A model generated the notes under the pieces. That model made no database searches. It had not been told where the DNA came from and saw only the letters and a program-made list of their open reading frames with translations. Made by a program: the position numbers and the translations under genes. DNA of 64,000 nucleotides from contig NC_088296.1 of NCBI RefSeq assembly GCF_032854445.1, positions 23,257,604 through 23,321,603 on the forward strand, in the 5' to 3' direction. Of the stretch, positions 25,801-64,000 are shown in pieces (position 1 is the first letter of the stretch; every line of letters starts with the position of its first letter). Origin of the DNA: Liolophura sinensis. Taxonomy: Eukaryota; Mollusca; Polyplacophora; Chitonida; Chitonidae.

Positions 25801-26190
25801 TGGATTCCACTCTTTGTATACAACGTCCGCCATCTTCCATTAAAATAAGTAATGCCGCTAAACTAATTTCCTTCCGTCTATTCGTCTTTCCGGTAAGATT
25901 TAGGGGCCATCTGCCCCTGGGTAACACGGACTTTATCTTGTGGTATTGTAGTTTGCATTCCATGGATTCCACTCCTTGTATACAACGTCCGTCATCTTCC
26001 ATTAAAATAAGTAATGGGGTTGAACTAATTTCCTTCCGTCTATTCGTCTTTAAGGTAAGATTTAGAGGCCATCTGCCCTTGGGTAACACGCAGTTTATCT
26101 TGTGGTATTGTAGTTTTCATTCCATGGATTCCATTCCTTGTATACAACGTATTAAGGTGGTCTGCCATCTTTCATTAAAGTATAGTGCGG
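22860..26190. repeat. 162-bp satellite array, about 20 copies
   Basis: The unit contains ccatctgcccctgggtaaca, attttcattccatggattcc, acgtccgccatcttccatta and tctattcgtctttcaggtaa, with period 162 (54 codons). Copies carry 1-3 base indels and shared variants (for example gcggttgaac versus gccgctaaac), indicating past homogenisation. The indels break the long frames, so I do not read it as coding. About 11 units contain a back-to-back acceptor/donor word ttcaggt(a/g)ag. Confidence 0.92.
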
Positions 26191-34796: not shown

Positions 34797-36010
34797 AGTG
34801 AGGTATAACTGGGATATAACGAGGGGCGGATCATAACAAAGGCTTTAAAAAATGGTACTCGTTGTTGACTCTCTTGGCTCTAAGCACTGATAGGCCAAAG
34901 CAAGGAAACATGATTGGTTGACCCGGTGTCAGCACGACGTTTCTACCGCCTCCTTTTCTGGGTTCAGTTTGTGGAGCTTTATCCACTATCTTGAGAACCA
35001 GTGAAGAAACTACAAGAAACTAGAGTTTTCCTTCATCAGCTGGAAAGGTTCAGTTTGAGACATAAAACTTGAAGTCAAAAGATTAACATGTTAAGGCAAT
35101 TCAATATTTACACACGTATCAGACACAAAGCTCTTATCATGGATTTTGGTGTCATCAAACACAATAAAAGAAATAAACGATAAAGTACGTGGTAAAATCC
35201 ATATGTAGGCCTACGGTAAAATGTCTAGTTTAGAAAAAAATAGACATGGTGAACTTAGCACACTTGATTAAGCTAGGAGATTAGAAAACTGTAACGATTT
35301 AGTTTTCCAATTACACTTCTACTAAACTTGGTTAATATCACATACAAAAATCTTCAATCAGCCGTATTCACATGCCTGCCCTTTGTTTCAGAATACATGG
35401 ATATTTAGTTGATACATTATATCCTCCATAAAGTCTGTTTTAGTCCTGACACATCACACGTGGTTACAACTGGGAATTGTCGCTGGTGGCAGCACGACAT
35501 GGCCCGAGCCTGGCGATGGGTTTCCACACAACGGAACAAGCTGTAATGTAAAACACAGATGATGCCTATATTTAATCACACAAATGTGTCGATGTTTGAA
35601 CATACTACATATCAAAATAAAGCATTATCACTCCCACAAGTCACCACTATAAACATGTAAACCAAGATAGGGAAAAGTGACCACCTTAAAGTATGCTCAT
35701 ATACAAGGTCTCAATATTTTGGGTACTTTCTATACATTGTATTTCAGCAAACTACAAGCATGTATGTGTTCCACACAGAGGGTTAGCGTGCATTTATGCA
35801 CCTGCTGTTCTTAATGAATAAACCTGCTTGCAACATACACATTTACACATATACACAATGACTATCAAGAGATTGAATTTAGCCAGTCAGCTGTACTTTC
35901 CAGCAACATTACAAATATTCCTCATCAAACTTTGGCCAAAACCTCCATATTTTGTGTCAGCTATGTGTATCAACATGTAACGATTGGGTTTCCATGACAC
36001 TTGAACAAGG
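34797..36010. repeat. segmental duplication, copy 2
   Basis: Direct partner of 29869-31797, in the same orientation. It contains the terminal exon used in the gene model (35417-35540). It lacks the roughly 700-bp insert and the SINE found in copy 1. Confidence 0.85.
35417..35540 (-). CDS. terminal exon (proximal copy), short Cys-rich tail
   Basis: Acceptor acattacag before 35540. One base (C) completes the split Ser codon left by TM2. It then reads LFRCVETHRQARAMSCCHQR, QFPVVTTCDVSGLKQTLWRI and TAA (35417-35419). Four Cys and two His lie within 30 residues, with no known domain recognised. Phase fit and an open frame in two diverged copies support it. Transcript evidence is lacking. Confidence 0.5.
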
Positions 36011-39000
36011 TGGCCAAGATGGTGGTAAACTTTTGGGAGGTTGGGTACTGAGATAACAGTCTTACACATTCCAGAAAATCGGCTTACTGTACAGAACAAG
36101 GGTGCAAGTAACGTGTATATTGGTTTACACCTTTGCATATATAGTCAAATTTTAAGAACAGTTTTAAAGCCTATAGAAAATGGGCTTCTGAGCACTATAC
36201 TAAACTATGTCTCCATGACTACGGCGATCATGTAGAATTTATTTCTGCTCTTATTGTTCCTTTAAAATGAATCAAAGGCTTTGTAGATTCATCCCTGCCA
36301 ACAACTAAAGCAACTGGGTTCCGTTTTATATCAACTAACTACCTGAAACATTTATGCATAAGAACATACATATCCATACATGTTACAAATTTACTTACGC
36401 TTTCAGGCATTTCATCAACACTCTGTACATTTTTCCGATTTTGTCGTCTTCTGAAATTTATTTGGAAACAAAATCCCTCATTCCTAAATTGCAGTATAAT
36501 ATATGCAAATCAGATTTGGTTACCGAGATTATTTGGGTTTAACTGCTTTTGACAATATAGCTTTTAAAAAACACTTTAGGGTATTATTGCAATTATCACT
36601 ATTACGCTGCCACGATTTTGATAAACCTTCCCTGTTTGTGAAAACTAATGTTTTTTCGTAAATCGCGATAAAAATACCAAAGTAATGGCAGATACTTTCC
36701 CTCAATTTTACATTACAAACCTTCTGATTCTCTTCACACAAGCAAGACGTTACATTTATTCTATATTCACTTGGCACAAACGGTGTGAAAAGATAACGTC
36801 ACAGTCACGTCGGTGATGAGAAAAGGTTAGCACTGTCACTGTCCAGTCAAAGCACGCCTTTGATCGATAAACCTTTTGAAAATGGCTTACACACCCGAGA
36901 AGTATGACTAAGACGATCAATTTACCTTTTGATCCTGCAGTAAACAGGACCAGTGCAAACGAACAAGAACACACTGACCACTGGAATAAAGACCAACCAT
37001 GGCTTGATCTCTTCTAAGTCTGGAGGTAAATTTAATAGGAAATGAGCTATTAGTAAGGATGATGTATATATTTAGCTGAACGTATGGAAATAAGACTGAA
37101 TCTCGCTAATTTACAACCAGCTTAAGTCCGTCAAAGAACACAAATTCCTCACAAAAGCACGATTTCCACCACATCATAGTTTGCCCTCTAAAATATTTGA
37201 CGTATAGCACTGGGCTTGTATCTGTTTAGCACTAAAACAACCTCCAGTTATCTGCTGTGGAATAGCTTGCTGCAAACACCAGTTTATGGTTTCGAGATCT
37301 CTGGTCTAAGCCTAGAGCATATTATGTTGTTTATAGGAATCAATGGCCATCCAAGGAACGTCATGTGCTGCTGGCAAACCAATCAAAATAGAATTCCAGT
37401 TTTCCGTGTTTATTTCAATCGGAAATAAACTTCAATCAAATGACCATATAAATATTTTTATTTTCAGTATCATTCTTTTTCTGTTTATAACTCACCTCTA
37501 TATGAAGGATATTGGCTTGTCACTTTGTCATTATCAATGTGGTTCACTGTTTTCATTTGAGGAGTCACTACTCAGTGAAAATGAAATAAACATGAACAAC
37601 AAAACACAGAAGCAGAAATAAAAGTCACAATTTTCTTTTCTTGTCACAATGTAGAATAATCAAACAGTTTTTACCGTGGACACACCTGTTTGCTTTGTGT
37701 GAGAAATACTATAACGTTACAAAAATGCTATGTGCAGTATTTTACTAAGTTTTCCAAGCTTATAATGTTTTAAAAAATCAGTTATGTTTTCATTTAGCAC
37801 AGAACACCCATAAACAAATAACTGCAAACTGTGGAGAAAGAAACATGCTCTGCCTCAGACATATCAGCTCTCCCAGATATCAACTCTAGCTGTATTTTAC
37901 TTACAGCAGCTTGCACGTGCAATTGGTACTCTCGAGTGAAACATGGCACACTGATGTGTTTATCGGTGATATACTCACCCGACACTGGGGGCCAAACATT
38001 CAGGCAAACTTGAGCCTCAACCACGGCTTGTTCCTCGAGTACAACAACAGTAACGGAGTAGTTGTCACTATATTCTGGTTTAGGGTCACGGAGAACCAAA
38101 GAGCAGTCCTCTCCCAGGAAAGCCGTGTCATTAAACTCTGCGACTGTGTAGGTTTGACCGCTTGATAGACCACTGAGTAATCTGTCGCCGTTCAGCCGCT
38201 GGCTGCGCCATATCACCGTGTATTTGGCTCTGGGGTTTTGTGTTGTAATGTTGCATGGCAAAGTAACGTCAGGCTTGGGAAGCTGAATGTCAACTCTGGG
38301 GTTTACCAAAACTGTTAAAGAACTAATACCTGAATAGCAAAAGACAAAACAAAAACACAGCTTATATTGAATGTGGAACACTTCAACCGTTCAGACAAGG
38401 CTTAACGTGGAATAAAATTACAAAAGAATATTATCGAGGTGAACTGATTACTTTAAAATGCACAAGTACACAAAATGAATGATCTGGCACTGTACTGATC
38501 AATGCAACCTTGCACTAAATGTAAGCTTATTCTTCATGTGCTTACATCGGTTTTTGTGTACATTTATGCATTGATATATTTATTGATTAATTTTTTGTCC
38601 GCCCCATGTGTGATATTATTTAGTAAGGCACCACACACTGAGCAGCACGTTAACTGGCTCCTTTACTGGATACATGCATGACGTATAAAAGACCAATACT
38701 TACTGTGTAAAAGACAGACAAGGAACACCCAAACACAGACCAGACCAACTGCTACAGCTCCATACTTGGAGTATGAAATTTCCGTTGAGGTGATATCAAT
38801 CTGAAGGAAACAACAACAAAATCCTTTCATCTGAAGAAAACAGTCACTTCCACATGTAAACTTAGAAAAGTGATCAGATAGCCAGTCTGAACGTTGTCTT
38901 TTCCCCATAACATTTAGAACGTACCTCACTCTGAGCATTACCCGTGGCCCCATTCTTCACAAATAGGCGAACGAGTTCCACATCATAGTTCTTCAGTGCC

Positions 39001-39910
39001 AGATCTAAGGGCGCCACTCCATCCTGTGGGAAATTGAATCAAAGGTGACGAGAGTTTGTGGGAGGTACATTTTTGGCATTGTGGGTGTACGGTGTCACGA
39101 GGGGTCAGTCACAATGATACAAAGTAGAATTTGCAGCACATGCTTTATTATATTGTCACCCTTTACTTCTACGTTTATTATGAACCAAGTCAATTTTACT
39201 TTTTAACGATATCATACATTAAATTGTGGAAAAGAATTTGCTCTTTGAATCGAAGGCCGTTGATTACATTGATAATCACACGACGCCCCCAGCATCGCCC
39301 TTACTTCTTTTCGTACACCACGTACCTTATTCTGCACGTTGACACTAGCCCCGGACTTTACCAGCAGACTTATAAGGTCCTTATTGCCTCTCCTTACCGC
39401 CAAATACAAAGGAGCCTCTCCTTCCTATGAGACACCAAAATTCAATGTCCTCAACATTCGTTTGATTGTTCTGTGATGGTTGTCAAAGATTTTGTGAATG
39501 TATACAAATACTTGCAGTTCAGTTGAATTTACTGAAAAGTGTTAAACACTATAAGTGCTATATTCTACATGTATACCACATGTATACTGCTGGTCGCCAA
39601 ACTCATGTATACAGAAAACTTGAATCCCGCAAAGAAAATACGGCCATAAAAATCATAGGTAATGAAAATTTAGGAATTGACACTCTTTCAAATTGCTTTT
39701 GGAAAGAGAGAAGCAGGAACAGAGTTAAACAGAGAGGTACATGAAAATCATTGTCTAACTGCGCTTTGGCTTCGCATTTTAGCCCATTTACGTTTTGGTC
39801 TCGTACATGTGTCGAATTACGTTTTGACCTCGTATTCAGTTTGTGTAGTTTCTGTCCTCTCCATTAGTATGTAATTTAACTTCACAATATATATACTGCG
39901 AATTTAACTT

Positions 39911-39982
<72 letters not shown>

Positions 39983-42900: not shown

Positions 42901-45900
42901 GCAAATCTGAAGACAAACTTGAGAAGTGTGTATTCTGTCGGCCAAGTGGTAAGATTCTACGTCACACTGTTGGTGCTGATGGTATACGACCTGATGCGGA
43001 GAAAGTAAGTGCCATTAAGAACTTTCCCCTACCAATCTAATGTGACTGACCTCTGCAGCTTTCTTGGCGTTGTGTCGTATTATCAAAAGTATATACGTAA
43101 GTTTGTGTACATATCATCCCCTTTGCATAATCTCTTGAAGAAAGATGTAAAATTTCCATAGTGTTAGGGGTGCGAAAACGCATAAAACCAAATGAGAGAC
43201 GCTCTTTGTTCTACTCCTATTTTACACTTTCCAAATTTTTCTCTCTGCCACAGACACCAGCATGCACGGACTAGGTGTTGTATTCGCTCAGCTTAATGGC
43301 GAAGAAGAGCAATCGACTGCTTATACAAGTCTGCAGCTAAAGAAAGCAGCTGTAATCTTGACAGCATTATGTTGTTTCAGCTGTTACGTATTACCATTAA
43401 ATGAACAATGACGATTGGTGAAGATCTGCTAATTCATTGTAACTGTTTAATTATGCCTATCCTTGCTAGGCCGTTGAGATATAATGTAAAGTCGTGAATC
43501 TAAGAAAAGTGTAACCGTTTGCTCTACTTCCATGTGTTATTTGATAGACTGTCCGTCTTGTAGGCGACTGCATGCGTGGTAAAGTCTGACTGTGTGTCTT
43601 CCGTGATGTGGGGAAAGAAAAGTTTTCTGAGTTTAAAGTTGTTCCGAGTGGTTACAAGCTGGAGGGATATGAATGTGACGGCGAGCAGCCTTAGCCTAGA
43701 ACGTCCGCCGTTCAGACCCTCCTCTTCCCAAACCCTCTTCCGTTTATACCCTACTGTTGTTTTAACACGTACATGTCTATAGAAAGGTTTAGCGTGGCTT
43801 GTTGTTGAATACAAAGTTTAAAAGACTATACATTTGTTGCTCAACTTTATGCCAGTTGCCTGGCCAGCACAGTGGTCACAATACAGCGGCGTCGACAGGT
43901 TAGTTCCATCCATTAAAGCAAGGGAAGGCTGATATTCCTTTGCACGCTACATAGATACATTGTACATATAAGAAAAATGTGTCCAGTGATGGCACAAGAT
44001 TAGTGTTTTATAGCGCTGGTTTTATAGGTTTCTTTCTCAGTTTCTTATAGAAACCTAAATATCAAAGAATTAGCATGTACCGGTCAATAAAGCTATTGGA
44101 AACTATCGTTAAGCTTGACATTAGAAATGTTGAAGCGAAACAACATCAACGCGTGTACGATAACCTATTGTCCTAGCTGGGCCAATCGACACATCTACTA
44201 GGCCTTCGTAACTAAGTTTCGCCCCAGTGGTGCCGTCGAAATTTATGACAGTTCAACCCCAGTCGCGCCATCGCGGATTGGACGGCCCCGGTTGCGCCTT
44301 GGCGGACTGGACCGGCCCAGTGGCGCTGTTCCGGACTGGGCAGCCCCAGTGGCGCCGTCATACTGGATTACAATTCCGTCCCAGTGGCACCGTCATATTG
44401 GATGGCAGTTCCGACCCAGTGGTGCCATCGCCGTCGCGATGTATGACAGTTTCGCCCCAATGGCGCCATAGCGATGTGTGACAGTTAAGCCCCAGTAGCG
44501 CCATCGCAATGTGTGACAGTTCAACCCCAGTGGCGCCGTTACCATGTATGACCGTTCTGCTCCAGTGGCGCAGTCCCGATGCATGACAGTTCCACCCCAG
44601 TGGCGTCATCGCGATGTGTGACATTTCCGCCCAAGTGGCGCCGTTACGATGTATGACCGTTCTGTTTCAGTAGCGCAGTAGCGATGTATGACAGCTCCGC
44701 CTCAGTGGCGCCGTGGCGAAGAATGACAGTCCCGCCCCATTTGTGCCGTAGCGATGGATGACAGAGTCTGAGATATTAGTTTAGTCTGTTTAGTACAGTG
44801 CTGCCATTTGCGACGCAATGCGGTGTATGGACCATTTTATACCCCGTGGGAGGCAGACAGATTTTAAAAATTTTAGAAGACATTGTGGCACTCTAGTTTC
44901 TTGAAATGCATTAGTTCAGGCCATAGGGGAGTGCCGTTTAAGTTACAACATATTTGGTCCGAAAGCTTTCTCTGCAGTCAGCACACAAAATTTGGTTGAT
45001 AGTCCGGACAACAATAACATAGGGTATCACCCAGAGAGCGGATGCCCCAAATATTGCTCCATGACATACAGTGGTCACTAAAAAGGGCACGTCATACCTG
45101 GACATTCCTAGCATCTTTCCTAGACAGGCAGACTTTCAGAGATTGTTAACAAAATAGGCGATACTGTTTTGCAAGTAACCAAATTTGGTTACTTTGTTTT
45201 TCGGCCATTTGGGGTTTTGTGGCATTTGATTTTTACAACAATTACAACAACTGATAAAGCGAATGCTCTAAAATGCTATCGAGTTAAACGTTGAACCTAA
45301 GAGATATAGTTTTAAAAAGACGTCAAAATTCCCTCACAACTTTTAAAGCTCGCCAATGGTCGAAAATATGATGTGAAAAAAGTTTTGAATTTTGATAAAA
45401 CCCTAACGCATTCTGATGTATTTCAGGTCATAGCAAAAAAAATATATAATTTTTGTTCGCACCATATGTAATATTGTGTTTACGCCAGGCGTAGCATAAT
45501 ATAAATAATTCATGCCTAAAGTGAACAAATTGCCATCTTGACTGTTGTTACTACATGTATTTGAAGGTAAAACTAAGTGTTTAAAATGGTTCTTGGTCCA
45601 ACATGCTCTCCTTTTAAAAAGCCATACAGTGCGTACCTTATTCTGTACGTTGACATTGGCTCCGTGCTTTATCAACAGACGGACAAGGTCCATATCATCT
45701 GTCCTCAACGCCCAAAACAACGCCGTCTCAGCTTCCTGTGGGATGTCACAATAATATGTCGTTTATATACTCGAGACACGCTTTTGTTTTTTAATTATTA
45801 CTAGTCTACAAAACAGTATCTCCTTTATATGGATCACCAGGATGTTGTACTGGTTGAGGCTACATTGAACAAGAGCTCATGTGAACACACAAACGCCCCA

Positions 45901-48900
45901 ACAAATGCATTTGTTTGAAATGTATAAAAGAATACCACCGGCATGTGGTGAGTATAACCCTTAGGGGGTTTTATTTTTATCGCAAGTGGGCAAATGTGTC
46001 CACCTGAAAACCAAACATTTTGCGAAAAACAGTTGGGTTTGTGGCCCGGGCACGAAAATCAAATCTATGTATATAGTATATATAAGAAAGATCTCATTAC
46101 CATGACAACCGCGAAAATAGATAAATGTGTGTCGTAAAAACATTGTCATTTGTGTATCTATGTATCCACCAAAAAATAAAACTCTACGTAGAAAACCGTG
46201 GGAGCTACAACCCGGACACGAAAATCATATCTGTATATATAGTACATATAAGAAGGGTGGTTTTCTGGTTACAATGACAACCGCGAAATAGACAAATGTG
46301 AGTCTAGACACATCGTCATATGTGTATGTATGTATCAACCAAAATCAAAACTCTACGCAGACAACTGTTGAAGTTATAGACCGGACACGAATACGATCTC
46401 CGCACAGTGGCAAGGCATATAAAAACTATTGAGCGACCATTGGCCATATCTACCTAATGAAGATCCGTATGCAGGCATTGCATACTATTATGTTAGCAAC
46501 GTTTTCCACGGGGTTTTTAGAGCGAATCTCTTTATTTTTGTTGGTACTTTGTACCCCCTTTGTTTACACGCACAGTGGAATGAGGACACCCTAATGGAGA
46601 ATGAATTAGACTGCATGCCTGGAAATAAGTCTAAAATAAAACATGGATTTTAGTGTTGGTCTTATTTAGTCTAGAATCAGAGGCAACGTGAAAATCATTG
46701 TACTCTACGCCATTTACCTCATTCTGTGTATTGACATCAGCACCTCTGTCTACCAACAGACGAACAAGATCCAGATTATTTGCCCTCAATGCTAAAAGCA
46801 ATGGCGTCTTTCCATCCTGTAAAAGTTAAAAATAGTATTTAGATAAAGTCAAGCCTCAGTGTCAAAAAAGACGCGGAGGCTTTTGATGCATACAGGATTT
46901 TATTTGGGGAAAATTTTCGTTGATTACATTTCCGAAAACACCAACAAAATCAATCAAGCTCTGACCAGGTTGGCGTCCTAAAACTGTTTCGTCCCTGTGG
47001 AACAGGTGACAGTAAGGTACCTGTGTGATTTCCTTTATTTTCAGGGAGCGGACATTTATGTAAAATCAAAGTTTGCACACTTGCGGCACCGTTCGGTACA
47101 TGATATCTGGGCCTCTATCTGGTAAATTACCATAACTCACGTCTTATCTGCCTCATTTAAGTGCACATCGGGAATGTATTCCTTTTTAAATGAGCCAAAC
47201 TGTTGAATACACCGTAAAAGTATTCAGCAATGGTACCAATTCTGTTCTACATATTCAAGGCATCCTCAATATATAGTTACAAATTCAGTTCAGATCCCCT
47301 CGCGTATAGAATTAGGTATAAAGTCTTTCAAATAATTTCTAGGAAACGAAGGCGATCCAGATCATTTGCCCCGATAAGCCAGGAGTAATGGCGTCTTTCC
47401 CTCCAGTGTGCCATAACAATAATATACAAACCACGACCTTCTCTCGCGGCAAGGAGAACTGTCGGTGATTCACCTACCTCACAAAATTTTATTTCGCCGA
47501 AACTTTCACTTCAAATATATTGCAATAAACAAGAAATTGCAACTAACATCACTGTATATTTTTACCCAATTGGTGCAGAATTTGCTACCATTTAAGCATT
47601 TACACGAACAGTTGGAATAAAGCCCGAGTTGACGTTGATTGAAAAGAAGCGATATTTCATGTGACAATTTGCCAAGAATCACACTACTGTTACTCTCTGT
47701 GTTGTAAGATTTATTATGTTGTATCCTTATATCCCCCGATTCTGCTGGTGGACTAAGCATCTATAAGGTCTGGTTCCTTTGCATTCTTTTAACGGTGCTG
47801 TGTGTTAAATGTGATGACAGCACAGCATTTTGAGTCCTTCTAGACCAGTGACGTCAAACTAATTGCAAGTAACACACGTGACAATTTGCCAACTATTACG
47901 GATCAATACATAAATGACAATATAATGTGGTAATACTCGATGTAGGTAACTCTTTCTTCGGGTTTACTTGCGCCGGAACAAAACAATGACAAAAAGTCAT
48001 ACTTGTTTTCAGAATAAAAAACCCAGACCACAGTATACAAATTCTGTGAACAATGCAGATAGTCCAGTTGCATCAGGAGTACAACTAGGCTGCCTCATGA
48101 TTATCTGATAAAGTTTAAATCGAGTCAAGGCATCCTCCACATTAGAACGTGAAAAAAACCTCTTTGAGCTGGGACATGCATACCATTCAGATTTTCATTT
48201 GTAGTGGATTAAAATTTGGGTACAAAGTACTTGGGTGTTCAGGATTGTGTATTCAGATGGCTTGTATTAAGGAGTTCCGCCATGTTTACTCACCAAATGC
48301 TAGTCCAAAAATCATACAAACAGCTTTGTAACATTGATTTCATTTAAAAGAAATGAACACAATCATACAATCCATAAATATATGGACATATAAGGTTCAT
48401 ACTTAAGGGTAAATGAAATATATGAATTTTCTGCCAGCAGTGCTTGTTTTTTGAGTATTGAATAGTTTAATATCAAAGGTTTAGAAGTCTCTTTCAGGCC
48501 GCTTCCTTTGTCTGAACACAATAATATCCACGATTATAACGATATACGTACATATCTAGCTAATACTGGAAATGCACGTTAATCGTTTGGCAGGAGTAAA
48601 ACCTTAAGCACAGTGACGTCACAATGAATATTCAGGAGTAGGAAAGGAGGCTTTTCATTAGGTAAGTCTGAAGTATGGCGCGATTTCAAATGTTTTTCGA
48701 ATCCGTCGTTATTTTGAAGAAAATAACAGTGCGGCAGTTACACAAAGCACCACAGCACCGTAGCAATGTACCACAGTGTCGAAGTCACACTGTAGCACAG
48801 TCCCGTGGACAGAGTCTGAGGTATTGGCGTAATCTGATCAGTAGTGTGCAGTTGCGTGCCACACAAAGCGGTGCATGAAGTACATTATTCCGTGTGACAG

Positions 48901-50963
48901 CCGGGCAGATTTTTACGGCTACATGTATCTTTCCTTTCTTCCGGATGTTAAGCTATTATAATAGGTGTAAGTCATGTGGGCGTGAAAAAACAAGAACTCT
49001 TCATAGGGGCCACTAAAGTTTTTGCATGTCCTCGAACCTGGCCCGTTTGAACAATTTCTATAACATTATGAATTTTATGTGATGACAAACAAACGCGTCA
49101 GCAATCCCAGGACTGAAATTACTATTCAAATCAGTACACATTTTTTACACAATTTTCCCTCTTGAATCCTTCCCATGGTGTATATTCTTTTGCAAGTTGG
49201 TCTCGCTTGAGCCATGTCGCTGAGCAGTGTATGTATGATGTATGTAGTTAAGCATTAATTGAACAATTCGAATATAGATATAACCCAGGAAAGCTGACAA
49301 GAGTCAGGAATTTACCGCTTAGGTGTGTTATGTATCTTTTGTATCACTGTCGTCGCTGATCTGGAGTTACTCTCGATAATGTGGTACTTTCTACATTATG
49401 AATGCACGATGAAGGATTGGCTATTCACCAACCTGCACTACGCTGTGACTGAGCAGAGCCAAGCTGACACTGCGGAAAAGGTTTGATTTGGTAACATCTG
49501 GATTTATATGAAAAGCCTTTAAGACTCTTATTCTCCAGAACAACTGAGCCGCTTGACCTTAAACTTGGCACACGTGACAATATATGTGTAGTTTGGTGGC
49601 AATTAAACCTTTACAGTATAAAAAAAGTCTTTTTTTGTAAATTAGGCTTGGACAGACCAATCAAAATAGATCGAAAATCTTTACAATTTGATTAAACAAA
49701 AGCCTAATGGACCTCAGACTTTTGACAAACAGCTCCCGTTTAAGCTGTGGCTTTCACGTGATAGCCAAAACACTTTTCAAAACTTAAAGTTTAAAATTTT
49801 TTATGACTTTTTTTTTAAACTACATGACATTTACGCAAACTTTGCTACCCCTAAAGGTGATAGTAAATTTCATTGGATTTTAATAAAACTAATGTATGTC
49901 TAATGTATACACCTAAGAATGAATGAATATAACAACAAGGAGTGCGTTAGGTAATGTACATATTGTTACGAGCTCCGTCTTTAAACATTGTATTATACTT
50001 TTTTAATTTTGCCTGGTGGGCGTCTGACATAGATTTTCCTCTTTGTGTACACTATAGCCCGTACTGTAATTCAGTCGAGCGTTTTCGAGGCTTCGGCGTT
50101 TAAGAGTTTCGTGTCACTGTACATACGGTATACATTCTGGAAATGTATATCGGTATCGTAAACCTGTTTACGACAAGCCATCCAGAATTTTCTTTGCGTT
50201 AGTCTATAAAAATGAGCGACGGTGCTGTGATGCCCGCGGTCATTTACTCAAGTCCATTTGAGAGCAGTCATTTACTCAAGTAAATTCTGACGTATTCTGA
50301 TGTATAGGTCATAGCAAAGAAATAATCTAATTTTTGTTCACACCATAGTGAATATTGTGTTTACGCCAGAGGCAGCATAATAAAAGAAATTGTATTCATT
50401 CCCAAAGGCAGTAAGTTCCCATCTTTTTGGGAAGGTCCCGCAGCGACCTGCGGATGGTCGTGGGTTTCCCCCGGGCTCTGCCCGGTTTCCTCCCACCATA
50501 ATGATGGCCGCCGACGTATAAGTGAAATATTCTTGAGTATGGCGTAAAACATCAATCAAATAAATAAATAAATTAATAAATTTAGACTGTATTCCTGGAA
50601 ATAAACCTAAAGTAAAACAAATATTTTAGTGTTGGTCTTATTTAGTGTAATATTTAAAACGATGTTAAAATCATCGCACTGTACACCACATACCTCATTC
50701 TGTACATTGACATCAGCCCCCCTCTCTACCAACAAACGAACAAGATCCAAATTATTTGCCCTCGATGCTAATAGCAAAGGGGTCTTCCCATCCTGCAAAA
50801 GTTAAAAATACTATGTAGATTAAGTCAAGCCTTAGTGTCAGCATGGTCATGGATTGTAAATGTACGTCAGTTGTCACCACAAAAGGCCTCCGTTTCCAAT
50901 ATAAATATACATTTTTTTCACAAAATGCCCAGCGAACAACTGTCTCGTGGACTGTGTGATAAA

Positions 50964-51028
<65 letters not shown>

Positions 51029-54000
51029 CATGAATGATTTCTTTTATTTCCAGGGCGCGGACAGTTATGTAAAATCAAAGTTTGGTTCTAGAACATGATG
51101 TGCGTGACAACTGATTGTATTTTAAGCAGGAAGACTTCAGTAGCACAGTTTGTGTAAAGTCGTAAACTGTTTCTTACTTCACACTTGCGGCACCATTCGG
51201 TACATATATCTGGGCTTCTTTCTGGTAATTTACCGTAATTGTCGCCATACCTGCACATGAGGAATGTATTCCCGTCAAATAAGCCAAACTGTGGTATAGA
51301 AGGTAAAAACATTCGGCTATGGTACAAATTCTGTTCAACATATTTAAGGCACCCTCAACATACATTTAGAAATTCAGTTCAGATCCCATCGAGTTTAGTT
51401 TTGAAGCCTTTCAAACCTTTTTTACCAAGTTAACATCAAAACATCGTTTTTGATGATGATTGAAACATAAACCTCTTATTTGTATTGAGATAGATAACTG
51501 TCCTTTCATTTGATCTGTGCACGACCTACTAGATCCTGAATTTTGATAGCAGTTCCTTTCCTGACTAGTAGAGGAGGGCGATCCACATCATTTGCCTCCA
51601 ATGAGCCAGGAGAAATGGTGTCCTTCCCTCCTGCGTACCGTATCAGTTAACTCTTCTGGTTTAAATGCGCCCGAACAAAACAATTTATGACGGTTCATAC
51701 TGGTTTCTAGAATACAAACCAGAATATGAACAATACACAGAGTCCAGCTGCATCAGGAGTACAATTAGGCTACCTCAGGTTGTCATGTTTATCTGAAAAA
51801 GTTTTCAAGCTTGATGACATTCAGGCTTTCATTTGTAGTGGATTAAAATTTGGGTAACATCAAAATAACTGCACAAAGTACTTGGGTGCTCAGGACTGTG
51901 TATTCAAGTCTTGCATTTTGGAGTTCCGTCATGTTTAACCAAATTCTAGTCAAGATTCTATTTCAGAATAGAGAATTGTACGAAAAAAGCTATACTTAAG
52001 GATGAATAAAATATCTAAATTTTCTGCCAACAGTGCTTGTTATCTGAGTAGTTAATAGTTAAACATCGAAGGATTGGAAGTTTTTTTTAGGCCGCCATTT
52101 TAACAGATTACATACTTCATCGTGCTTAGCTTTGCCCAATAGCTTTTCAGTGCATGGCATTCCAGGCACAGTTTGGTAGCCTACAGCCACGCATGTGGGC
52201 ATGATGTGCCCTCTGGTGCATTCCAAACTCTTCCTTTGTCTAAACACATTTTTGTATCCACGATTATCATGATATACCTACCTATTTAGCTAATAATGGA
52301 AATGTGCGTTAATCATACAGTAGGAGAAAAATCTTAAGCACAGTGACGTCACAATGAGTTTTCGAGAGGAGGAAAGGCGGCTTTTAATTGAATAAGCCTA
52401 AAAGATGGTGCGACTTTCAATGTTTCTCGAATCGAATCTCCAATGTTTAAACTGTTTTTGTTTCAGACGAAAAAAAAGAGAATTCCATACAATTTGTACA
52501 GCTTTGTCAGGTAAGGTATATGTTGTATAAGTACGTTTTTTTTCATTTAAGACCACAGGGATTCCACAATGTTACACGTTCCAAAACAACAACAACTCAC
52601 CTTATTCTGAATGTTGATGTCTCCACACAGATCCACAGTCTGACGGACAAGATTCACATCATTTTTTCGCACTGCCCAATGAAGAGCCGTTTCTCCCTCC
52701 TGTGGGAATTTCACAATAACATACATGTAGCAGATTCATAGTCATCAGTGGGATTGTTAGTGTATATCGTGTAGGTAAGCATGCTATCTATTGATAAACC
52801 AAACTGATCAAGGATGTATTAATCCGCAATGACACTGTACCACCGTGCCATCGTCACACACGGCACCACATCACCGTAGCTATGTACTGCAGAGGCGCGG
52901 TCACACTGTATCAAAGGGCCGCGGTCACACACAGCTCCACAGCACCGTAGGGATGTACTACAGAGGCGCGGTCACACTCTACCACAGTGCCGCAGTCATA
53001 ATGTACCACAGCACCGTGGTCATGTACCACAGAGGCGCGGTTAAACACAGCACCACAGCACAGCAGTGATGTACCACAGTGATGTACCACAGTGATGTGA
53101 CCACACAGAGCAGCACAGTACCGTAGCGATGTACCACAGTGCCGCGGTCACACTGCACCAAAGTGCCGCTGCCATACACTGCGCCACAACACCGTGGCGA
53201 TGTACCACAGTGCCGCAATGAAACTGTACCACAGTGCCGTGATCGTTTGAATTTGTATAACATCATTTATATAACATAATTAAATTACATGTGATGACAA
53301 GAAAACGTGTCCGCAATCCCAGGCCAGAAATTATTTTTTAAATCAGCACACATTTTTACACAATTGCCCCCCTTGAATCATTTCCATGGTGTATATTATT
53401 TTGCATGTTAGTCATGAGCCATGTCGTTAAACTTTGTGTGTATGATGCATTATTTCAACAATTCAAATGCAGACCTAATCCAGGAAAGCTGACAAGAGTC
53501 CGGAATTTACCGCTTAGGTGTGTTTTGTATCACTTGTGTCACAGTTGCCGCTGATTTGGCGTCACTCTCCATCTTGTAGTACTTTCTACCTTATGAATGC
53601 ACGATGAAGGATTGGTTATTCACCAACCTGCACTAAGCTGTGACTGAGCAGAACCAAGCTGACACTGGCGAGGAAAGGTTTGACCTGGTAACATCTGGAT
53701 TTATATGAAAAGCCTTTAAGAATCTTATTCTCCAGAACAACTGAACCGATTGACCTCAAACCTGGCACACGTGACTATATATATGTAGTTTGGTGGCAAT
53801 TGAACCTTTATAGTATAAAAAAGTCTTTTTGTAAATTAGGCTTGGACAGACCAATCAAAATAGCGCAAACTTAGGTCAACTGTAAAATCTGCACAACTGG
53901 ATCAAACAAAACCCTAAATGACCTCAGGATTATGACAAACAACTCCCGTTCAAAGCTGTGGCTTTTACGTGATAGCCAAAAAAAACTTTTTCAAAACTTA

Positions 54001-57000
54001 AAGTATAAAATTTTTTATGACTTTTTTTAAAAACTACATGACATTTACGTAAATTCTATTACCCCTAAAGGTGATAGTAAATTTCATTCGATTTTAATGA
54101 AAGTTTTGTATGTTTTAGGATAGACTTATGAATGAACGAATATAACCACGAAGAATCATTATGTGGGTTTACATATTGTTACGTCTTTAAACATTGTATC
54201 ATATTTTGTCTGGTCGATGTTTTGTGTTTTGTGTACGTCATAGCCTGCGTTGCAATTCAATCGAGCGTTCTCGACGCTTCGGTGTTAAGGAGTTTCGTGT
54301 CCTTGTTCATACGGTATACATTCTGGAAATATATAGGGGTTGTAAACATGTTTACGATAAAACCATATAGAATTTTCTTTATGTTAATTTATAAAATGAG
54401 GGACGGAGTGATATTTTGTTTCGTTAGTTTCTGTTTTAAAGCCGTTATTTTCGACCTTGTATCGCCCATTCTCTCAATGTGCGATTACGTAATTCTATCT
54501 CAGTTTACCCTGAATTTGAAAACATTTCCGACGAGTGAAACCCACATCGCCAGCTCAGCATCATAGACGCTACTGAAAACCCATCCGCCCTGAAAAGTTA
54601 CACTTCACAGGGAGTTGGAGGTCTGCTTGTCACTTGTAATTCATTTACGTCAACTGACTCTCCTTTGGAATCCGGAATATTCCATCCGGATTTTTGACGC
54701 TGCCATTAGTAAGAAACTATATATTTTTGCAATTATTTGTATTGTTTTGTATATTATTTTTAGTTGTATTATTTGCCTATTTTGTTCAAATATATGCATT
54801 GAACTTATTCCAGGATCTTCGTGTTTCTTTGATATTGTGTTAGGCCTATCGCTGATCTGAGAGTTGAACAAGCCAGTTGTTTATCATCTTTACTCTCCCC
54901 CCTTACATGTGCATCTTCTTGCAGCAGGGTGAGCCAATGTTGAAGAAGTCCTTCTGCCACTAAAGTGTCATGCCGAAGACACTAGACATGACACCCCATC
55001 CAGTCACATTCCTATTCTGTTTCCTTGCTCTAACCTTCCAGTGTTGAGCGCCAAGGCGTAGTAGGCCTAATAACATTACCGTGTAAATACGGGGCAAAGT
55101 TTGTCATATCTTTTGTCGGCTATTTTGGATTTCTTTCAACTGAGATTTTTTTGAAAACGTCCATTTAAAATTGTAAAATTTTACATTCCTGTAGACTGAC
55201 TCTATGTGTATGAAGTTTAAGAGAGGCGTCGAAATTCGTTCACAACTTCAAAGATGGTCATAAATGTCAGGTCACAAAAATGTTTGGACTTGGTGTAACC
55301 TTGACGTGTTGTGATGTATTTCAGGCTGCTGATTTGTCAACAAAAGTGTTGAAAACTGTTAGAAAACCTCTTATCCACTTAACAAGTGAGTTTGTGTAAG
55401 ACTGCATGAAATTTATTTGTCGCTTTAGTTTATCGCGGGAAGGGACATCAAGCTTGCAACAGTGTATTATTTCTATATTTTGTTCTCGGCTATAAGCAGA
55501 AGATTAGGTCCACACAATCTGTATGCTAGCCTATAGTTGTACTACCATTGTGCTGTCTGGGATTCAAATCCAACATGCTGTATCCATTTTTTTGACGTTT
55601 GTCTCCTTTTTACCATAGCTATCATTACTATTACCAACATAATTTATTCAGAACGTACAAAAGCAGATCTTGAAATCACTGTACTCGACAGCTATATTTT
55701 CATCTTGAATTAGGGAGAATCAAACTACTCAGAAATCATCAGAAAGTTCAAATAGTGTGATGCAACAAACAACATGCTCTTCCTATACACAATCGTATGA
55801 ATATACGTGCATGATACAGCTGAATGAGAGAGGAGTGTGTAATACAGCTGTTTCATCCACGTGTCTTCCGAATTACTCCTTACTTGGACCATATACATTT
55901 ACTTGTAGTTATGAATCTTTGGCCTTCGATAAGATCTGTTAACTGTAACTTGTTCTACCCGACATACCTGATCCGGGGCTGTGAGACTGACTCCTTTCTT
56001 CGCCAGTAGACGAACACTCTCTATATCACTGTTCATTACTGCATTGCGCAAAGACATCTGGCCTCTCTGTAGATTGTCATAACTATGTGTCAATTCCGAT
56101 ATAAATGTATAATTACGACATTAGTTTACAACATTAAACTCATCTGCACATATCTCCAGGTACAGTAGATATCTTAACTAGTCATTTACATATTTATCCT
56201 ACTCACTGTTTACAGATATACTCACAGTCTCCCATCGAGGATACTGCATGCATTTATTGCCAGCTAAAACTCCATATTTTGACACTAAATGTTACTCGGG
56301 CTCCACGTGTCGGTATGTCGTGTGTCATATTGTCGCGTTTTTAGTTTGTAACAAAATGTCCTGACACCAGACTTTATGTAAATTATAAAATGATGTGCAA
56401 ACCTTATTTACATCAACTATAAAAGTTTGGGGAAATACTCTGTATAATCTGTAAAGGGTTAATTGCCATATCTATAACATAACAACAACAGCTATCCAAA
56501 GAAATGACTAAATGAACGACCCGAAATCCAGGATAGACTTAATGGGCTGTGAAAGTTTAACTTAGAAGGGCACGCTCGCCCCTAGTTCCTGATATAGCAT
56601 AGAATGGCCCAAGTTTGTTTCTCCATATAGCACATGAACACGTGATCGGGCCATATGCCACAGTTCAAATTGAGTTTACCTTTCGACGCATTTTAGCTAG
56701 ATAATTCTGTACCATTCGCCGTCACACACCGTAGTTAATTTCATAAAACATGTATAGACGTATTATAACATACCTTATCCTGTACACTGGCGTCCTCATT
56801 GTTCTGTATCAGCAAACGAACAATGCACACATGGTTTAATGCTGACGCCATGCTCAAAGCCGTCCTCCCGTCCTGAATAATGTCCAAGACAGTTAATAAT
56901 TAGTGTAGTTAAGGCTCCACACGTCAAACAGACCCAGTGTTCAGCCGATTTTGCAAAAAGTATAAGAGCAAAGAATTCAATATAACATAATAACTTCAAA

Positions 57001-61901: not shown

Positions 61902-61933
<32 letters not shown>

Positions 61934-63845
61934 CGCAGATGGGTGAAATATTTCCAGGGGGTTTTAAGAAGTGAAAGTCATTAAAATGTACTCGAGCTCT
62001 AACTAAAATACTGTGCCTGCCTAAGAACAAAGGCGGTAAAAAGCCATTAAGTAATGTAACTTACATCGTCGTTCTAGATGAACTAGTTATAAAATATGCC
62101 TCGACCTTCTAAAGATGGAAGTTTGAAATATTCACACTTATTATATTCTTTGTAGAGCATTTTTCTTAGATGGGGTGAGTGGGTGTGGTGCCTAGTACAG
62201 GTCTTGAATACAAAGAGCAGTTGTCATGTAAGTAAACTGTATGACAAAGCACCATCTCTCGTCACGTTTTGCGGCCGGCCTCACATCAATATCTCACGTA
62301 CCTTATCCAGTACATTCACATAAGCACCCTTCTCCAGCAGAAAACGAAGAACATCTACATTGTTTTTTTCCCGGCTGCACAGAGCAAAAGGGTCCACCCA
62401 TCATTAAAATGTGCCCGAGCTCTAAATAAATACTCCACCTGCTCAAGAACTAACGCTGTAAAAGTTCATAAAGTTACGTTAGATAGATCTGCGGAGTACA
62501 GAAATACGATATAAAATAATGATCGTTTTTCTAAAAATGGAAGATTGAAATATTTACATTTATTTTATCCTGCGTAGGGCAAATTTATTTAGTTGCAGCC
62601 AGTGGATTTTGTGGATAGCACGGGTCTTGAAATTCAAGGCTCAATTGACATGTGTGTAAACGACATAGCAAAGCACCAGCCCTCGTAAACTATTGTAGCC
62701 AGCCTCAGATCAATATATCACGTACCTTATTCTGTATATTGATATCAGCACCCCTCTCCAGGAGGAAACGAACAACATCTACATTGTTTACCCGAGTTGC
62801 AATGTGCAAAGGTGTCCATCCATCCTGTGCAAAGTAAAAATAATGTAATACTTGAATTGCTACTTCAGTAAAAAAGCCATGAATGACAAATTTACTAAAA
62901 ATTAATTTAGCTACCTCTTTTAACACAGGGAATGTAAACACAATATAAATGTGAGCTATTCTGGTGGCGTATTAGACATTTGAAGTGCCCTTTGTACTTG
63001 CTTCCTTGGCGTAAGTAAACTACAGAGCCTGTTCATTTCTGTTCCCAGTACTGTACTGGTTTTCGAGTTCGCCTTTTGAAATCACTATGTCTATGCGTCT
63101 GTATGTCAAGGGCGCTAATACACACTGGCCTCAATTTCTACAGTCGTCAAACGGAGAAACACTTTTCTTCGCTGTAAAATTTCAACATATGACATTTATC
63201 CGAGTCAAAACTTTGATTAAGTCAACAGTAGGTTTGAAAGAAAAACTCACCTGGATGATTTATATTCATGAGTATGTTTTGGCTTTAATAGATTAATAAC
63301 CTTACACTCAACAAAATGCTCAGCAATTCTTATCGAAAAGACTTAGATTATGGTTTTAAAACCGTACGTGGTTTTTCGCAGTTTTTTTTTTTTAATTTCG
63401 AGGATGGGTGAAATATTTCCAGGGGATTTTAAGAAGTAAAAGTCATTAAAATGTGCCCGAGCTCGAACTAAAATACTGTGCCTGCCCAAGTACTAAGGCG
63501 GTAAAAGGTCATTAAGTAACATAACTTACATCGCCGTTCTAGATGAACTGGTAATAAAATATGCGTCTACCTTCTAAAGATGGAAGTTTGAAATATTCAC
63601 ACTTATTATATTCTTTGTAAAGCATTTTTCTTAGATGGGGTGAGTGAGTTTTGTGTTTAGTACAGGTGTTGAAATACAAAGTGCAGTTGTACAGAACACC
63701 GTCTCGTCAAGTTTTGTCGCCGGCTTCACATCAGTATATCACGTACTTTATTCTGTACTTTGACATCGGCACCCTTCTCCAGCAGGAAACGAACAATATC
63801 TACATTGTTTTCCTTGGCTGCATAGTGCAAAATGGTCCACCCATC
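35417..63845 (-). CDS. ankyrin repeats - TM - Ig - TM membrane protein (5' end beyond window)
   Basis: Join (5' to 3') of 63845-63747, 62824-62726, 56872-56774, 56066-55968, 52699-52601, 50792-50694, 46816-46718, 45735-45637, 39424-39326, 39023-38925 (ten ankyrin exons), 38800-38704 (TM1), 38329-37979 (Ig), 37019-36926 (TM2), 35540-35417 (tail, TAA). All ankyrin exons are 99 nt, phase 0-0. TM1 is 0-1, Ig 1-1, TM2 1-2, and the tail enters in phase 2 and is open to its stop. Predicted topology: cytosolic ankyrin stack, helix out, extracellular Ig domain, helix back, basic cytosolic tail (CRIKSLFRC). The start codon lies right of the window. Alternative: the gene ends after TM1 and the Ig/TM2/tail exons form a second gene. 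The phases and the lack of a Met in the TM1 exon favour one gene. Function unknown; receptor or scaffold is inferred. Confidence 0.65.
36011..36925. other. intron between TM2 and terminal exon
   Basis: No further exon is convincing. A - strand open stretch near 35887-36050 (VPNLPKVYHHLGH...) has an acceptor-like atctcag but an ill-defined end and no family match. Confidence 0.4.
36926..37019 (-). CDS. ankyrin-Ig gene: second membrane-helix exon
   Basis: Acceptor acctccag; phase 1 in, so G from the Ig exon plus AC makes Asp; donor gtaaat, phase 2 out. The peptide is LEEIKPW, helix LVFIPVVSVFLFVCTGPVY, then CRIK. Basic residues directly after the helix fit a cytosolic side there. Confidence 0.7.
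37020..37978. other. intron
   Basis: AT-rich intron between the Ig and second TM exons. No element recognised. Confidence 0.5.
37979..38329 (-). CDS. ankyrin-Ig gene: Ig V-like exon lacking the second canonical cysteine
   Basis: Acceptor ttgctattcag after a strong T-rich tract, donor gtgagt, phase 1-1, 351 nt. Hallmarks: VNPRVDIQLPKPDVTLPCNI (first Cys), KYTVIWRSQR (core Trp), GEDCSLVLRDPKPEYSDNYSV (D-x-Y-x-x where the second Cys should be, here Val), then AQVCLNVW. Two other Cys could form a different disulfide. An ATG at 38379-38381 reads through the pyrimidine tract as a signal-like MFHIQYKLCFCFVFCYSG, so an alternative start with a secreted N-terminus is possible. Confidence 0.85.
38704..38800 (-). 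CDS. ankyrin-Ig gene: first membrane-helix exon
   Basis: Acceptor tccttcag, donor gtaagt, phase 0-1, 32 codons. The peptide is IDITSTEISYSKY, helix GAVAVGLVCVWVFLVCLL, His. No Met, so it cannot be an initiating signal-peptide exon. Its phase 0 entry matches the donor of the preceding ankyrin exon and its phase 1 exit matches the Ig exon. Confidence 0.75.
38925..39023 (-). CDS. ankyrin repeat exon, last before TM1
   Basis: 33 codons: DGVAPLDLALKNYDVELVRL, then FVKNGATGNAQSE. Keeps the PL..A, VRL and NGA positions of an ankyrin repeat. Acceptor cccacag, donor gtacgt. Confidence 0.9.
39326..39424 (-). CDS. ankyrin repeat exon
   Basis: EGEAPLYLAVRRGNKDLISL, then LVKSGASVNVQNK. Strong ankyrin consensus (PL.LA, G..DLI.LLV..GA.VN). 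Acceptor tctcatag, donor gtacgt. Confidence 0.92.
39913..39979. repeat. (AT)n microsatellite
   Basis: Uninterrupted alternating A/T tract in an intron of the ankyrin gene, followed by acattacgatc. Confidence 0.98.
40275..40468 (+). repeat. 5' LTR
   Basis: Pairs with 43676-43871 over most of its length (shared gttgttgaatacaaagttta and caactttatgcca). Each LTR has an internal deletion the other lacks. Begins TG, ends CA. Confidence 0.8.
40880..41245 (+). pseudogene. gag relic
   Basis: Fragments in shifting frames resemble retrotransposon capsid: LLPAYLRDRVAVKLRL, then SPRDYVDKLAMDHFIQGIHM. Several stops. Assigned by position after the primer-binding site and by general resemblance. Confidence 0.5.
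41240..41460. other. GC-rich, CpG-dense foldback block
   Basis: Abruptly GC-rich sequence within an AT-rich neighbourhood. The word gcaaat.gcgcg followed by ggtaccgt occurs at about 41284 and again about 98 bp later. tggtgaccatcctcg (41340s) is the inverted complement of gaggacggtcacc (41430s). So it has both direct and inverted internal repeats. It lies at the end of the gag relic. Confidence 0.7.
41580..41695 (+). mobile_element. diverged tRNA-derived SINE fragment
   Basis: cagcaacctgcggatgggaa, the gtctggtttttcccaccat segment and ccaccgtcgtataagtgaaa are present. The tail is degraded. It is nested inside the decayed LTR element, so younger than it. Confidence 0.75.
42490..43350 (+). pseudogene. 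reverse transcriptase / RNase H relic
   Basis: Starts with RPYQVPASQRDMVEREVDKM and SPWSAPVVLVQKP, hits a stop, continues RFCVDYRAINLITK and HYFTTIHLLSGYWQVEI, and then loses about 100 codons, including the catalytic Y-x-D-D. A second part keeps the C-x-F-C and G-I-R-P-D-A-E-K-V landmarks of gypsy RT. A third (TDTSMHGLGVVFAQ) matches the start of RNase H. Clearly inactive. Confidence 0.85.
43676..43871 (+). repeat. 3' LTR
   Basis: Partner of 40275-40468. It starts tgtgacggcgagcagcctta and ends ggccagcaca. It has a 30-bp pyrimidine-rich segment (cttcccaaaccctcttccg...) missing from the 5' copy. Confidence 0.8.
44222..44765. repeat. 35-bp GC-rich tandem array (about 15 copies)
   Basis: The unit is of the form gacagttccgccccagtggc followed by gccgtagcgatgtat, 35 bp in the better-preserved right half and more degenerate on the left. 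In the intron between ankyrin exons 39424 and 45637. Confidence 0.85.
44766..45636. other. intron with sequence shared with other intron blocks
   Basis: 44765-44890 resembles 48797-48920 (gacagagtctgag, gcagatttt). 45280-45420 resembles 55200-55330. 45410-45540 resembles 50280-50410. This mosaic shows repeated segmental duplication within the gene. No exon. Confidence 0.6.
45637..45735 (-). CDS. ankyrin repeat exon
   Basis: EAETALFWALRTDDMDLVRL, then LIKHGANVNVQNK. Acceptor cccacag, donor gtacgc. Close to consensus. Confidence 0.92.
46718..46816 (-). CDS. ankyrin repeat exon (duplicate pair with 50694-50792)
   Basis: DGKTPLLLALRANNLDLVRL, then LVDRGADVNTQNE. Differs from its duplicate at only a few residues. 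Acceptor tttacag, donor gtaaat. Confidence 0.93.
47345..47417 (-). pseudogene. decayed ankyrin exon
   Basis: On the - strand EGKTPLLLAYRG is followed by a frameshift and TGA where relatives read ANDLD. The acceptor before GAG is lost (cactgg). The matching fossil in the other duplication copy is at 51567-51630. Confidence 0.7.
47418..50429. other. intron, copy-1 duplication sequence
   Basis: No exon. 48740-48870 holds a short remnant of an accacagcaccgtagc-type repeat expanded in the partner region (52840-53240). The rest aligns by eye with 51640-54400. Confidence 0.5.
50430..50581 (+). mobile_element. tRNA-derived SINE, 5'-truncated
   Basis: Well preserved: gcgacctgcggatggtcgtg, ccataatgatggccgccgac, then ttcttgagtatggcgtaaaa and an (aaat)n tail. 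In an ankyrin-gene intron, antisense to the gene, just left of duplication copy 2. Confidence 0.9.
50694..50792 (-). CDS. ankyrin repeat exon (duplicate pair with 46718-46816)
   Basis: DGKTPLLLASRANNLDLVRL, then LVERGADVNVQNE. Acceptor tttgcag, donor gtatgt. Textbook ankyrin repeat. Confidence 0.93.
50967..51024. repeat. (AT)n microsatellite
   Basis: Uninterrupted alternating T/A tract in the ankyrin-gene intron. Absent from the corresponding place in duplication copy 1, so it expanded after duplication or was lost there. Confidence 0.98.
51567..51630 (-). pseudogene. decayed ankyrin exon
   Basis: Acceptor-like gcag then EGRTPFLLAHWRQM. The frame slips where relatives read AND-VD, and the exon end is lost. 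Fossil partner of 47345-47417. Confidence 0.7.
52601..52699 (-). CDS. ankyrin repeat exon (divergent)
   Basis: EGETALHWAVRKNDVNLVRQ, then TVDLCGDINIQNK. First half strongly ankyrin (TALHWAVR). The second helix is unusual (QTVDLCGD instead of LL...GAD). Acceptor cccacag, donor gtgagt. No counterpart in duplication copy 1. Confidence 0.9.
52840..53240. repeat. degenerate GC-rich array
   Basis: Repeats of gtaccacagtgccgcggtca-like words with irregular spacing. Collapsed to a few copies in the matching intron at 48740-48870. Related in style to the 35-bp array at 44222-44765. Confidence 0.75.
54885..55065 (-). mobile_element. second SINE-like family, reverse orientation
   Basis: Read on the - strand it carries ggcgctcaacactgg, agagcaaggaaac, gtgtcatgtctagtgtcttc and a ggctcaccctgc word, the same family as 28929-29218 and 34830-34985. 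Confidence 0.6.
55066..55967. other. intron
   Basis: 55200-55330 is a diverged copy of 45280-45420. No exon seen before 55968. Confidence 0.5.
55968..56066 (-). CDS. ankyrin repeat exon (divergent)
   Basis: RGQMSLRNAVMNSDIESVRL, then LAKKGVSLTAPDQ. Begins RG rather than DG and lacks TPLH, but keeps A..N, D.ESVRLL and KG. Acceptor tctacag, donor gtatgt, 99 nt. Confidence 0.8.
56774..56872 (-). CDS. ankyrin repeat exon
   Basis: DGRTALSMASALNHVCIVRL, then LIQNNEDASVQDK. Acceptor tattcag, donor gtatgt, 99 nt. Moderately divergent in the loop (NNEDA for GAD). Confidence 0.88.
56873..62301. other. large intron, no ankyrin exon seen
   Basis: I searched for the recurring CGTTTxCTG/GTTCG ankyrin words on the - strand and found none between 56873 and 62301. 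58090-58210 resembles the hairpin element seen at 270-383 (ttttataaa...aagctta). A T-run lies at 61905-61929. 61530-62300 aligns with 63030-63740 as a tandem duplication. Confidence 0.5.
60381..60632 (-). CDS. hypothetical 83-residue open frame
   Basis: ATG at 60630-60632, TAG at 60381-60383. The peptide begins MEPEANYFLVDVAFFDEDDP and includes SFIVLIMTLDPWYRENIWFV, with many Trp/Asp/Glu, unlike random AT-rich translation. It is inside an ankyrin-gene intron on the same strand. No family recognised. It could be an exon of another gene or a processed fragment. Confidence 0.3.
   Translation of the reverse strand: MEPEANYFLVDVAFFDEDDPMLWRSQGSFIVLIMTLDPWYRENIWFVEHSTASGGHQGARHATGLGTEKLEKCIMTASSVAFS
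61530..62402. repeat. tandem duplication unit (partner 63030-63845)
   Basis: Shares cactggcctcaatt(c/t)ctaca, gtcgtcaaacgga.aaacac, attatggttttaaaaccgta and the following ankyrin exon with 63030-63845. Between them 62403-62824 is a third, partial copy of the right part of the unit. Confidence 0.85.
62302..62402 (-). pseudogene. broken ankyrin exon at a duplication junction
   Basis: Reads DGWTLLLCAAGKK and then shifts frame at an A-run and meets a stop. In the shifted frame NVDVLRFLLEKGAYVNVLDK follows, with donor gtacgt intact. It is 101 nt instead of 99, and the acceptor AG is missing because sequence equivalent to 63443 onwards joins directly to the exon's first base. Confidence 0.85.
62726..62824 (-). 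CDS. ankyrin repeat exon
   Basis: DGWTPLHIATRVNNVDVVRF, then LLERGADINIQNK. Almost exact ankyrin consensus. Acceptor ttgcacag, donor gtacgt. Confidence 0.95.
63747..63845 (-). CDS. ankyrin repeat exon, rightmost in window
   Basis: DGWTILHYAAKENNVDIVRF, then LLEKGADVKVQNK. Acceptor ttgtacag, donor gtacgt. The phase 0 acceptor requires further upstream exons beyond position 64000. Confidence 0.95.
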
Positions 63846-64000
63846 CTGTACAAAGTAAACATAATGTAATACTTGAACGGCTACCTCAGTAAAAATGCAC
63901 TTAATGACAAATACACTACAAATTAATGTAGATACACGTGTTAATACGGGAATGTAAAAACAAAACCAATGTGAGCTATTTTCGTGGCGTATAAGGCATT

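Follow-up and report, generated by a model that had tools for sequence, protein, structure and literature searches.

We identified a gene on the minus strand of contig C2 (NC_088296.1) of the chiton Liolophura sinensis that probably, with a confidence we place near 0.7, encodes a two-pass membrane protein, in which an N-terminal ankyrin array is followed by a membrane helix (TM1), a V-set immunoglobulin (Ig) domain, a linker, a second membrane helix (TM2) and a short tail. It would belong to a C2 family of eight members, with a ninth 5' end on the same contig. The window, as we call the whole stretch of DNA analysed, comprises 64,000 nucleotides (C2:23257604-23321603), and the searched genome comprised 609,464,459 bases in 632 contigs. 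The assembly was published as Liolophura japonica (PMC11068029), a name since corrected to L. sinensis (PMC12441733). The gene spans approximately 59 kb and reaches about 30 kb past the window to its start exon; positions beyond 64000 are given here in extended coordinates. A sequence-only reading of the window had proposed one gene with ankyrin repeats, a helix, an Ig domain and a second helix, and this is the best reading, since eight loci share the same unit order and phase and TM1 is exclusive to them.

All ten 99-nt phase 0-0 ankyrin exons listed in the sequence-only reading were recovered where it had placed them, on the minus strand, open and with AG/GT splice sites. In transcriptional order these are ANK11 (63747-63845), ANK12 (62726-62824), ANK13 (56774-56872), the divergent ANK14 with its weak ankyrin score (55968-56066), ANK15 (52601-52699), ANK16 (50694-50792), its near copy ANK17 (46718-46816), ANK18 (45637-45735), ANK19 (39326-39424; open with AG/GT in five of eight copies) and ANK20 (38925-39023), the final repeat before TM1, whose AG/GT sites are kept in all eight copies. 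The exons for TM1 (38704-38800, phase 0-1, KD peak 2.59), the V-set Ig domain (37979-38329, phase 1-1, identified by predicted fold and homologous exons) and TM2 (36926-37019, phase 1-2, KD peak 2.22, open in seven of eight copies) likewise follow in the claimed order, at the claimed positions and in compatible phases. The earlier exon list had overlooked two exons on the same strand, a 72-nt linker exon between Ig and TM2 (37496-37567, phase 1-1; open in 8/8 copies, acceptor AG in 7/8) and a 52-nt exon encoding the short basic tail (36399-36450, phase 2-0; model frame open in 8/8 copies). It had also held that the terminal exon opens only in phase 2. With the 52-nt exon included, this terminal exon (35454-35540, minus strand) reads in phase 0 and ends LVPLCGNPSPGSGHVVLPPATIPSCNHV, and its acceptor and stop position are common to several paralogs. 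The window copy is open in phase 2 as well, but the phase-2 reading was rejected: in the paralog L011 it is disrupted by a 2-nt deletion, which sits after the phase-0 stop. The window also contains large tandem arrays at 2140-4395, 22909-26150, 982-1821 and 16649-17403, with periods of 39, 162, 50 and 99, respectively; several of them show long open frames in multiple phases and make poor gene candidates. Elsewhere in the assembly, seven COX1 copies spaced about 15.5 kb apart lie on contig C99, apparently a concatenated mitochondrial assembly, and contig C632 (15,209 bases) carries one COX1 copy.

Ten further 99-nt ankyrin exons were found upstream, beyond window position 64000, and the window gene has twenty 33-codon ankyrin exons. 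One of the upstream exons, at 84664, has a broken donor (GT changed to TT); with this exon left out, the joined exons give 901 codons plus a stop. The start exon (94294-94223, minus strand) codes MTFSCVDFVRQMVQLAASVNAQNK; its ATG is kept in all copies, and no splice acceptor is conserved ahead of it. We considered whether it might be an internal exon and rejected this, since L051-L053 and the copies on the plus strand lack the acceptor AG. A 73-nt candidate coding exon near 95019 was also rejected, since its phases (1-2) are incompatible with the start exon; in addition, it adjoins a repeat spread genome-wide. Two members of the family, the window gene and L011, were followed over their full length, 3' end to start exon.

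The presence of tandem 33-residue ankyrin repeats is confirmed by a Pfam Ank match to ANK19-20 (E 4.4e-11). Every ankyrin exon found is phase 0-0, so the number of repeats can vary with the frame unbroken. The most compact gene is L011, where four ankyrin exons were found between the start exon and TM1 and one acceptor, that of ANK19, is lost; no ANK19 exon was found near L010 and L013. Blocks of ankyrin exons have also been duplicated within the gene, giving near-identical repeats in L037 (extended positions 86137-83656) and L028-L029 (68687-67184).

The Ig exon, searched against the genome, matched eight close copies of equal length (67-100% identity) and eleven distant ones (25-35%), all on C2. 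The eight close loci, namely the window gene and seven paralogs, carry ANK20, TM1, Ig, linker and TM2 in one order with identical phases, which excludes a chance arrangement. The TM1 helix gave eight matches genome-wide, one per locus and none outside these eight loci, and TM1 and ANK20 are adjacent in every copy. A search with the start-exon region found nine 5' ends, some of them split into two matches. On each strand these alternate strictly with the 3' modules, in the same orientation and with the start exon upstream, forming eight pairs; the genes of the family would span about 22 to 95 kb. The ninth 5' end, for which no 3' module was found, is at 28371 kb, 24 kb short of the end of the scaffold. 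Among copies, the TM1-Ig intron is 83-92% identical, against 91-95% for the exons; similarity so close to that of exons indicates that the copies are young, and their shared order is weaker evidence than the count implies. C2 is rich in V-set Ig exons (3.8 to 28.2 Mb): it contains 19 of 19 Ig-exon relatives and seven of 20 Pfam V-set matches, although it makes up less than 5% of the genome. The cytosolic tail varies between copies: L015 (region L035) has an extra tail exon, LFSSKKRSSTDSGCVETQTPKMPET, followed by a splice donor.

Hydrophobicity peaks only twice along the joined protein, at residues 667-685 and 832-850, and these two peaks flank the Ig domain. Hydropathy of the joined frame revealed no hydrophobic stretch and no signal peptide in the start exon; both features of a type I Ig receptor, an N-terminal signal peptide and a single helix after the Ig domain, are thus missing. 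Ankyrin repeats are cytosolic and Ig domains extracellular, and the proposal that this holds here too agrees with the distribution of sequons and charge. The ankyrin region (651 residues) contains no N-glycosylation sequon compared to 3.9 expected on shuffling (P 0.018), and between the two helices there are three in the window gene and three to six in the paralogs. TM2 is followed by a strongly basic stretch, with seven K/R and zero D/E in 15 residues, and the charge pattern at TM1 is neutral as a positive-inside signal. Together, sequon placement and charge put the Ig domain outside and the ankyrins and tail inside. A single transcript joining all exons would thus yield an N-terminal array in the cytosol, some 20 ankyrin repeats long, a TM1 that carries the chain out of the cell, a glycosylated V-set Ig domain and linker outside, and a TM2 that returns the chain to a short basic cytosolic tail.

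The Ig exon is confidently predicted to encode a V-set domain with a beta-sandwich fold. AlphaFold, with the 19 homologous exons as input, gave a model with a mean pLDDT of 92.6 and a pTM of 0.85. Foldseek and VIA-align 2 matched this model over its full length to V-set domains (Z 14.5-15.6, rmsd about 2 A), and all 999 chains aligned by VIA had Z of at least 8, the best reaching 15.6. By sequence, the window copy falls under every Pfam cut-off (Ig_3 E 0.049), 15 of the 19 homologous exons have a Pfam V-set match at E up to 1 (best 2.6e-7), and the sequence profile matches JAML, CD80 and VSIG4. The same V-set fold extends over the whole domain in receptors of the IgSF such as TIGIT, CRIg/VSIG4, the nectins, MPZL1 and amphioxus VCBP3. 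Unlike the usual V-set domain, the chiton Ig lacks the cysteine expected in strand F (YSDNYSV), and the canonical B-to-F disulfide is absent from the Ig exon family. Cys25 in strand B is invariant and Cys75 in strand E nearly so, from which we infer a B-E disulfide between the two. Some IgSF domains lack the canonical B-to-F bond, so its absence leaves the assignment to the V-set fold standing.

Over eight exons we counted 295 distinct changes among the paralogs. No in-frame stop was found across the paralog frames, as against about 12 expected with random changes; two stops scored in the substitution test are single changes against the consensus codon, and the actual codons are not stops. Synonymous changes were in small excess (89 against 76.6 expected, P 0.05), and none of the per-exon synonymous/nonsynonymous tests was significant alone. 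Pairwise dN/dS rose from 0.31 (ANK20) through 0.49 (TM1), 0.60 (TM2) and 0.85 (Ig) to a value above 1 in the linker, whose coding status is less certain for this reason. Amino acids change fastest at residues 41-70 of the Ig domain and in its C-terminal strand. On these comparisons the reading frames are maintained, yet purifying selection is weak and the proteins are fast-changing. A weak purifying signal is also what a largely decaying family would show, one made of recent duplicates, several of them nonfunctional, in which the ancestral frame is still legible. Lesions are indeed present. In L010, TM2 carries a frame-breaking 11-nt deletion and the paired start exon, L051, a 1-nt deletion (C2:24153638-24237056), and this member probably makes no full protein. 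In addition, L011 has lost the ANK19 acceptor, L016 the linker acceptor and the window gene one donor. However, a transcript lacking any of the 0-0 ankyrin exons, or the 1-1 linker, would stay in frame, and the window copy is intact except for one skippable ankyrin exon. The pooled lack of stops and an Ig exon without indel or stop in eight copies, despite 143 distinct changes, also argue against general decay, which we regard as improbable.

Three other accounts would separate the Ig domain from the ankyrin array. The least implausible of them is that the main transcript ends in the TM1-Ig intron and encodes a tail-anchored ankyrin protein ending CLLHSKYWSFIRHACIQ, the Ig domain being present only in an alternative, longer transcript. 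The unspliced frame after TM1 meets a stop 13 codons in, at a position that 8/8 copies share without a gap, and every copy has AATAAA-like motifs roughly 106-119 nt from the start of the intron (window 38704-38580 and the seven paralogs). The read-through block is 88.8% identical and the next intron block 83.1%, but other blocks of this intron are equally conserved, up to 91.7%, and in AT-rich DNA an AATAAA-like motif is unremarkable. In nearly all copies, moreover, the frames of Ig, TM2 and tail are open, which makes a short main product unlikely. A short, tail-anchored isoform may exist. A good deal less credible still is that the locus comprises two genes, one for the ankyrin protein and another for a V-set receptor that has a promoter and a signal peptide of its own. 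Two of the distant C2 Ig relatives, L025 and L026, are indeed built in this way, each with an exon that resembles a signal peptide, and pieces of 9-10 kb read around some of the distant relatives yielded no intact ankyrin exon. On the other side, TM1 and ANK20 always occur together, and the TM1 acceptor is kept in 8/8 copies whereas no start codon is conserved there, the in-frame ATG just upstream of TM1 in the window copy being CTG in L010 and absent in L016. It is also conceivable, with low probability, that TM1 acts as a cleaved internal signal peptide, which would free Ig-TM2 from the ankyrin arm as a one-pass receptor. TM1 has the position and end phase of the relatives' signal-peptide exon, and a possible S-x-S site follows the helix. 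A proline directly after a cleavage site normally blocks signal peptidase, however, and L013, L014 and L016 have a proline directly after this site; the hydrophobic core of TM1, at about 19 residues, is also long and anchor-like. We therefore retain the two-pass protein as the preferred reading.

The distant V-set Ig genes on C2 (L017-L027) provide a clue to the origin of this gene. Their Ig exon is homologous to that of the window gene (24-35% identity) and, where read, is likewise phase 1-1. In L025 and L026 the exon MVESTMLSSGTAHWTVLVVFFLCSK, or its homolog, is signal-peptide-like, ends in phase 1 and lies about 0.3-0.4 kb before Ig, whereas in the window gene the Ig exon is preceded by the ankyrin array and TM1. 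Another distant relative is followed, at a distance of a few kb, by a helix exon readable as phase 1-2. Signal-peptide exons were also sought before L017, L019 and L024, with repeats or weak candidates only. Since TM1 matches the signal-peptide-like exon of L025 and L026 in both location and end phase, a fusion between an ankyrin gene and a V-set receptor gene is plausible. The 3' half would derive from a V-set receptor gene of the C2 type, placed downstream of an ankyrin array, and the signal-peptide exon of that receptor may have been turned into TM1.

Long N-terminal cytosolic ankyrin arrays followed by membrane helices are known from TRPA1, Kidins220/ARMS, ZDHHC17 and plant ACD6, and the chiton protein resembles these in having its array before the helices. 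To our knowledge, none of them has an Ig domain between two helices. No TRP- or Kidins220-type channel, P-loop or acyltransferase core was found in the joined frame, in which the Ig exon follows the ankyrins. Known V-set receptors usually have an N-terminal signal peptide and one helix, whereas the chiton gene has an ankyrin array and a helix before the Ig domain. Notch has an extracellular N-terminus, one helix and C-terminal ankyrins, and thus shares with the chiton protein ankyrins inside and a recognition part outside, in the opposite order. The sequence-only reading knew of no described family with this domain order, and our full-text literature search, with partial coverage of subscription journals, likewise found no protein with the order ANK-TM-Ig-TM.

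In conclusion, our analyses point to a two-pass ankyrin and V-set Ig protein encoded by a young gene family on C2. Based on the domain logic, the clustering of the genes and the fast change of the Ig domain, we tentatively propose that the product serves in recognition or adhesion at the cell surface, as a receptor with an ankyrin scaffold on its cytosolic side. In such a receptor the Ig domain could bind a variable ligand and the ankyrin array hold cytosolic partners. The fuller account, equally tentative, is of a mollusc fusion receptor in which a signal-peptide exon became TM1, with a clustered, fast-changing family coupling Ig domains outside to ankyrins inside. If transcripts confirm the gene, its domain order would be new to the literature searched and it would be a clear case of gene fusion, with an ankyrin arm placed before a V-set receptor. 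The recognition receptors of chitons have been little studied, and this clustered family, whose Ig domain changes fastest at residues 41-70, is a candidate chiton recognition system.
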